Source: Streptomyces sp. SCUT-3 (GTDB lineage: Bacteria > Actinomycetota > Actinomycetes > Streptomycetales > Streptomycetaceae). Taken from it: a stretch of DNA of 64,000 bases. The notes under the pieces were generated by a model. The model did not search any database and was not told where the DNA came from. It saw only the letters and a list, made by a program, of their open reading frames with translations. Below are positions 41,297-45,858 of this stretch, in pieces (positions within the stretch are counted from its first letter, which is position 1; every line of letters begins with the position of its first letter). The position numbers and the translations under genes were made by a program. The DNA lies in the NCBI RefSeq assembly GCF_014083985.1, contig NZ_CP046907.1, positions 124,001 through 188,000 on the forward strand. Reading direction: 5' to 3'.

Positions 41297-41306
41297 CCCT
41301 CCTGCG

Positions 41307-41366
41307 GTGCACACGAAACCACCCGCCCCCGGCCTCCCGGCCACGGGCGGGTGGTTTCGTGTGCAC
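41307..41366 (+). terminator. 22-bp perfect stem terminator
   Basis: The arms 41307-41328 and 41345-41366 are exact reverse complements over 22 bp; the 16-base loop contains a further GGCC/GGCC stem. It directly follows the HATPase stop and precedes the MreB-like gene, so read-through between them should be low. Confidence 0.9.
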
Positions 41367-41484
41367 CGACCGGCCCAACAGGACCGGCCAATATCTTCTG
41401 GGATCTTCTGACGAGCGGACGATCGGGCATGAATGTCGGGCACTACCGCCCGGCCGGCCCACCCCCGCTCGAAGGAGCCCCCGG

Positions 41485-44836: not shown

Positions 44837-45294
44837 TCAGCCGCCCCGGAGCCGGCGACCGACGGCCCCGAGGCCCTCGGCGAGCAGCGCGAGCTGGTCG
44901 CGGGTCAGCACGTCGATGAGCGCCTCGCGCACCGCCGCCACGTGTCCCGGCTCCGCGTCGCGCAGCTTCTCCCGCCCCTGCTCGGTCAGTCCGGCGATCA
45001 CGCCGCGGTCGTCGGTGGGGCAGCTGCGGCGCCGCACGAACCCCGCCTTCTCCAACTGGCCCACCTGGTAGGACAGGCCGCTCTTGGAGGTCACCAGCAG
45101 GCCGGCCAGCTCGGTCATGCGCAGTTCGCCCCGGGTGCCCCGGAGAGGTGCACGAGGATCTCGTACTGCGGGTGGGAGAGGCCCGCGTCCTCCTTCAGCT
45201 GCTGCTCGACGCGCCGGGCCACCAGGTGGCTGGCGGCCAGGAAGCTCGTCCAGACCGCCATCTCCCGGTCGTCCAGCCATCGGGGTTCCGTCAT
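44837..45294 (-). pseudogene. MarR-family regulator, frameshifted in its middle
   Basis: ATG 45294 starts a clear MarR N-terminus (MTEPRWLDDREMAVWTSFLA, then ASHLVARRVEQQLKEDAGLS, HPQYEILVHLSGAPG) which then ends after ANCA at a stop. The winged helix (LRMTELAGLLVTSKSGLSYQ, VGQLEKAGFVRRRSCPTDDR) and the C-terminal helices continue in the next frame to 44837. Adding one G to the coding-strand G4 at 45129-45132 restores a 152-residue protein (APGGELRMTEL). The likely role is repressor of itself and the divergent DoxX gene through the large palindrome between them. Sequencing error or real loss cannot be told apart here. Confidence 0.88.
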
Positions 45295-45310
45295 GCGTCG
45301 ATCCTACCCA

Positions 45311-45373
45311 TGTTGTTCAAATTCGAATCACCAGGTACGGTCACCCCCATGAGTGATTCGAATTTGAACAACA
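45311..45373. promoter_or_regulatory. 21-bp-arm palindrome spanning the doxX start: MarR operator pair
   Basis: Arms 45311-45331 and 45353-45373 are perfect reverse complements over 21 bp, separated by 21 bp. Each arm contains the near-palindrome TTCAAATTCGAA, a shape typical of MarR-family operators. The right arm lies inside the first codons of doxX (SDSNLNN). Half-sites are thus placed on either side of the transcription and translation start. A long hairpin in the mRNA could also hide the start codon. Confidence 0.85.
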
Positions 45374-45858
45374 AGTGGGTCGTCGACTCCGGACTCCTGC
45401 TGCTGCGCCTGGCCCTCGGCACGACGATGTTCCTGCACGGCGCGCAGAAGCTGTTCGGCTGGTTCGGCGGAGGCGGCATCGAGGGCACCGGGCAGTTCTT
45501 CGCCATGAGCGGCTACCCCGCCGGCACGGCCATGGCCGTGGTCGCCGGACTGGCCGAGACCCTCGGCGGCCTCGGACTGGTCCTCGGCCTGCTCACCCCC
45601 CTGGCCGCGGCGGCCGTGGTGGGCACGATGATCAACGCCGTTGCCGTGAAGTGGTCCGGCGGGTTCTTCGCGCCCGCCGGGGTGGAGTACGAGCTGCTGC
45701 TGGCCGCGGCCGCCGCCGCGCTCGCCCTGACCGGTCCGGGCGGGTTCGCGGCCGACCGCGCCGTGCCCCGGCTGCGGGGCGCCGCCCCCGCCTTCGCCGT
45801 CGGCTCCCTGGCGCTGGGCGTGCTGTCGGCCGTCGCCGTCCTGCTGGTCCGCGGCTGA
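45349..45858 (+). CDS. DoxX family membrane protein
   Basis: A 169-residue protein with four TM helices: SGLLLLRLALGTTMFLHGAQ (with the DoxX motif R-x(5)G...HG..K), AMAVVAGLAETLGGLGLVLG (E in the second helix is conserved), PLAAAAVVGTMINAVAVKW and a C-terminal pair. KLFGWFGGGGIEGTGQFFAM matches the DoxX loop. ATG 45349 lies inside the large palindrome, with no clear ribosome binding site. Family roles are in redox and membrane integrity. Likely controlled by the divergent MarR regulator. Confidence 0.93.
   Translation: MSDSNLNNKWVVDSGLLLLRLALGTTMFLHGAQKLFGWFGGGGIEGTGQFFAMSGYPAGTAMAVVAGLAETLGGLGLVLGLLTPLAAAAVVGTMINAVAVKWSGGFFAPAGVEYELLLAAAAAALALTGPGGFAADRAVPRLRGAAPAFAVGSLALGVLSAVAVLLVRG

Follow-up and report, generated by a model that had tools for sequence, protein, structure and literature searches.

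The palindrome at the start of doxX in Streptomyces sp. SCUT-3 is best read as twin opposed operators, each of ~20 bp, of a divergently encoded MarR repressor, with the second operator (O2) caught inside doxX. On this reading, to which we assign a probability of about 0.85 from sequence comparison, the doxX and marR mRNAs are both predicted to be leaderless, and no hairpin is expected to form between the arms. The layout is a variation on an arrangement already known, with the unusual part at the doxX start. The features of the locus are listed in Table 1.

Table 1. Predicted features of the doxX-marR intergenic region (positions in the window)
Feature	Sequence	Position	Strand	Details
Operator O1	GTTGTTCAAATTCGAATCAC	45312..45331	.	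Core 45316-45327; across 34 relatives, almost no variation in core and outer flank
Operator O2	GTGATTCGAATTTGAACAAC	45353..45372	.	Core 45357-45368; within doxX codons 2-8 here
doxX -35	TTGTTC	45313..45318	+	Inside O1; TTGTTC in 34/36 distinct cassettes, TAGTTC in 2
doxX -10	TACGGT	45336..45341	+	17 nt from -35, 7 nt before ATG; TA(C/G)G(G/C/A)T in 36/36 cassettes
doxX, 169 aa		45349..45858	+	Predicted leaderless from the position of -10 relative to ATG; Pfam DoxX PF07681, E 6.2e-20
marR -10	TAGGAT	45301..45306	-	6 nt before marR ATG (45294-45292)
marR, class A		44837..45294	-	Related to SCO3205/AbsC; a frameshift near 45119-45145 splits the gene

The palindrome contains two copies of one core

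The window, which is the whole 64,000-nucleotide stretch analysed, lies in a single-contig Streptomycetaceae genome of 6.07 Mb. As the original prediction stated, the arms of the palindrome at 45311-45331 (TGTTGTTCAAATTCGAATCAC) and 45353-45373 (GTGATTCGAATTTGAACAACA) are perfectly complementary over 21 bp; they are separated by a spacer of 21 nt. The palindrome was also said to overlap the doxX start codon, which is correct in that it straddles the ATG (45349-45351), but the ATG itself lies in the spacer, outside both arms. As a control for chance, 60 copies of the window were generated with a first-order Markov model, and the longest perfect arm among them reached 17 bp, compared with the 21 bp observed. 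Each arm was predicted to hold an inner near-palindrome, and TTCAAATTCGAA was found in both. A search for this core elsewhere recovered just these two exact copies in the whole genome, both at the doxX locus, and one further site within one mismatch.

The exact full-palindrome pattern was absent from the 297 other family genomes searched, because the flanks vary while the cores stay. A second genome (L123), upstream of doxX, carries both operator copies complementary at 8/8 flank positions; all eight positions match in 0.09% of cross-paired relatives. MarR binding alone does not explain the perfect 21-bp extension past the operator core. The window also contains a longer inverted repeat at 41305-41368, with 24-bp perfect arms and a 16-nt loop, which is located shortly after the end of an upstream reading frame and looks like a transcription terminator.

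The operator pair is conserved in the family

We searched 298 family genomes for two TTCRAATTYGAA sites located 18-34 nt apart, using the reversed pattern as the control. Pairs were found in 83 of the 298 genomes, and the control pattern gave zero matches in the same set. Outside the family the pair is rare, occurring in 2 other genomes of a 394-genome sample of the class. Most of the pair loci lie at doxX, at marR or between both genes, and a few precede a VOC-type gene. The 37 fetched loci with the pair at doxX correspond to 36 distinct cassettes, one from SCUT-3 and 35 from relatives, and marR itself carries the pair in most of the remaining fetched loci. Among 34 relatives, the consensus is GTTGTTCAAATTCGAAC for the left site and GGTTCRAATTTGAACNAC for the right site. 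Thus, a pseudo-palindromic operator of ~20 bp is conserved along with the regulator.

The spacing between O1 and O2 ranges from 36 to 42 nt among the doxX cassettes, which indicates that cooperative binding on the same face of the DNA is not required, and strict helical phasing of the two sites was dropped as a model for this reason. The varying spacing agrees with binding by two independent dimers. The arms are, by comparison, two candidate operators, in line with the proposal that the site accommodates two MarR dimers.

Operator type follows the recognition helix

Class-A proteins, with the recognition helix TSKSGL[ST]YQV, are associated with TTCRAATTYGAA operators, and SCO3205-like proteins, with the helix TRSRLSHAVARL, are associated with TTGAANNTTCAA sites. 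In genomes without class A, TTGAANNTTCAA sites are found at doxX and at the VOC gene, and they also occur at three SCO3205-like marR promoters (L214, L237 and L238). The MarR encoded in the window differs from SCO3205 both in the helix (TSKSGLSYQV versus TRSRLSHAVA) and in the operator (TTCRAATTYGAA versus TTGAANNTTCAA), and from these features it is a sister type of SCO3205 and not its orthologue. The operators preceding doxX thus switch along with the type of regulator, and this is the best support, short of binding, for the arms being MarR operators.

The same comparison bears on whether the operators could serve another regulator encoded elsewhere in the genome. Several relatives have the doxX pair 20-30 kb from marR, so that action at a distance is normal here, but class-A marR itself carries the same sites in most pair-bearing loci, and none of the 12 genomes with another operator class at doxX, or with none, encodes a class-A MarR (best identity, 53%). 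We therefore consider a different regulator very improbable. The match between helix type and operator type provides an operator code for this MarR subfamily in Streptomycetaceae. Our literature search found no description of the class-A MarR subfamily, its operator code or its small regulon.

Promoter geometry argues against an mRNA hairpin

The operators overlap promoter elements: the doxX -35 element lies inside O1, and O1 is directly upstream of the marR -10 element. The -35 and -10 elements are exactly 17 nt apart in 36/36 distinct doxX cassettes, in which the -10 variants are TACGGT, TACGCT, TAGGGT, TACGAT and TAGGCT. Of 56 distinct marR promoters, 55 contain TANNNT followed by 6 or 7 nt to ATG/GTG. 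A sigma-70 consensus scan of the locus under E. coli rules found no promoter, because a -35 element of TTGTTC and a -10 element of TANNNT fall outside those rules. In S. coelicolor, the -10 consensus is TANNNT, leaderless mRNAs arise from about 21% of primary start sites, and AUG is the favoured start codon of leaderless mRNAs (76.4%) (PMC4895711). Given the -35 element in the left arm and the fixed -10 spacing, transcription of doxX is expected to start between the arms, at the ATG.

The original prediction proposed two layers of control, in which MarR would bind the arms as DNA and a hairpin in the doxX mRNA would hide the start codon. A hypothetical transcript over both arms does fold strongly (-42.3 kcal/mol, z -7.4). 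However, the predicted doxX transcript begins past the left arm and includes the right arm only, which makes a start-codon hairpin unlikely, and marR, read the other way, has its start outside both arms, so that its transcript would include neither arm. It is thus unlikely, from promoter geometry, that the arms share one mRNA. Pairing beyond the operator core is not maintained across relatives either: flank positions of the two arms pair at 151/272 positions within loci, versus 156 +/- 3.4 in cross-paired loci. The predicted leaderless 5' end of doxX is less structured than its shuffles (z +1.8). On the basis of promoter geometry, flank pairing and 5'-end folding, the hairpin was rejected as the main mechanism, and we regard such two-layer control as very improbable.

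O2 forms the first codons of a shortened doxX

Positions 45352-45372, which nearly coincide with the right arm, encode DoxX residues 2-8 (SDSNLNN). The claim that an operator dictates the first residues of DoxX is therefore borne out, and the comparison with relatives lends it support. All other cassettes have O2 in the 5' leader, where it precedes the Shine-Dalgarno (SD) sequence and the start codon. For the 34 relatives inspected, the right operator is followed after 21-114 nt by an SD-like sequence and a start codon, and the protein has a Ser-, Thr-, Pro- and Ala-rich stretch of 24-42 residues ahead of the position of residue 13. The distance from the -10 element to that position is 43 nt here, whereas the 35 other cassettes have 126-266 nt. 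The SCUT-3 locus is at least 83 nt shorter and has no leader, SD sequence or N-terminal extension. The original prediction had set conservation of the arms against conservation of the DoxX N-terminus: the arms are indeed kept as operators in relatives, but the N-terminus is not conserved and is encoded by an operator only in this genome. Codons 2-8 are rich in A+T (14/21), with a GC3 of 4/7, compared with a GC3 of 155/161 in the remaining gene.

The simplest history, as inferred from these sequences, is that a deletion removed the segment lying between O2 and the conserved portion of doxX. A misassembly between the -10 element and the early doxX codons is a possible alternative source of the shortened start. 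A more extended reading is that doxX, once leadered, became leaderless through the loss of its leader and now begins at the ancestral transcription start, that O2 came to encode the N-terminus of a membrane protein and is still used by the repressor, and that the MarR regulon (doxX, VOC and LigB dioxygenases) has its own operator code; we hold the chances of this combined reading to be about even. It would provide a natural example of a switch from SD-dependent to leaderless translation in which the promoter and operators are kept and an operator writes the first residues. A literature search by phrase found no operators inside coding sequences.

A model for repression by MarR

From these comparisons we infer MarR binding, repression, a leaderless start, a deletion event and a class of inducer, and these could be combined as follows. 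One MarR dimer would occupy each arm. O1, between the divergent promoters, would cover the doxX -35 element and the bases immediately preceding the marR -10 element, and a single dimer on O1 could silence both genes. The O2 core, at about +9 to +20 of doxX, would lie within the RNA polymerase footprint and could pose a second block on doxX. An inducer would free MarR, and marR and doxX would be derepressed together. As neither mRNA would hold both arms, no arm-to-arm RNA hairpin would form. The deletion would have removed the leader, the SD sequence and the usual disordered N-terminus, leaving an ATG at the conserved start point to begin DoxX and O2 to double as doxX codons 2-8.

The marR gene is frameshifted in this genome

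A MarR winged-helix protein is encoded beside the sites, and its gene is frameshifted in this genome, as implied by the reference to a repaired MarR in the original prediction. The frame is broken at about 45119-45145, where the TGA that closes the first half shares bases with the ATG that opens the second. The second half holds the winged-helix domain (Pfam MarR PF01047, E 1.7e-8 on the C-terminal half), and the closest relative of known structure is SCO3205 (PDB 3zpl, E 1.9e-19), which is the top structural match of each half. A comparison across the SCUT-3 genome gave, as the closest MarR paralogue, a protein of 45% identity with a recognition helix of the AbsC type, and no paralogue of class A. 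The frameshift is either a real loss or a sequencing error, a one-base shift in a G/C run.

Since the linked marR is frameshifted, repression in strain SCUT-3 is uncertain, and if marR is truly broken the operators are probably left empty. The sites might then be relics, with marR dead, doxX constitutive, O1 kept as a promoter element and O2 kept as coding sequence, a scenario to which the frameshift and the lack of a detected class-A paralogue lend some weight. However, both cores match the family consensus perfectly, even where the promoter or the codons leave bases free, which suggests that the loss of marR is recent or merely apparent, and sequencing often introduces one-base shifts in G/C runs. 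We thus consider relic sites unlikely, though a serious alternative to operators in use by MarR.

The predicted regulon resembles those of known MarR systems

The site within one mismatch of the core is located 28 bp before a PF00903 gene (L003 1501-2032; C1 near 3667933 in the SCUT-3 genome) of the glyoxalase/bleomycin-resistance/dioxygenase superfamily. A gene of this superfamily thus lies behind the next-best operator site, as in an MhqR-type regulon. Among 30 loci of this PF00903/VOC gene, including that of SCUT-3, a class-A site is present upstream in 13 and a class-B site in 9, and in a few genomes the VOC gene directly adjoins doxX by coordinates.

The Bacillus MhqR regulon includes the DoxX-like protein MhqP. 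Paenibacillus MhqP was called an azoreductase in 2025 (PMC12673573). MhqR is a quinone-sensing MarR of Firmicutes that controls ring-cleaving dioxygenases and glyoxalases through an operator spanning the transcription start from -6 to +12 (PMC6798810, PMC12893000). The module described here resembles MhqR of Bacillus and Staphylococcus in having a MarR repressor over dioxygenases/glyoxalases and an operator at the start site, but MhqR has its own operator, a 9-9 bp repeat (TATCTCGAA-aTCGAaATA), and the likeness is drawn here as an analogy. By this analogy, the module may sense a quinone- or catechol-like compound and control a detoxification regulon like that of MhqR. The comparison of genomes defines a small predicted regulon for a MarR subfamily across Streptomycetaceae, with a testable class of inducer.

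SCO3205 of S. coelicolor recognises two distinct operators within a divergent promoter, with Kd values of 1.3 and 2.4 nM, and its divergent partner, SCO3204, is a class III extradiol dioxygenase gene (PMC3737563). The SCO3205-SCO3204 system is like the one described here in that the regulator belongs to the same MarR branch, two operators lie in one divergent promoter, and a class III extradiol dioxygenase also partners class-A marR in many relatives. It differs in having another recognition helix and operators of the ACTTGAACTCTCAA type instead of TTCAAATTCGAA, which precede the genes by 36 and 21 nt and lie outside coding sequence. In the many relatives concerned (L178-L204; for example, L184 690-1580), class-A marR and a LigB-type extradiol dioxygenase gene diverge from each other, with the same paired operators. 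A search of the SCUT-3 genome for a LigB dioxygenase, run without a positive control, gave no match. In at least some of the LigB-marR genomes, doxX has its own operator pair 20-30 kb away.
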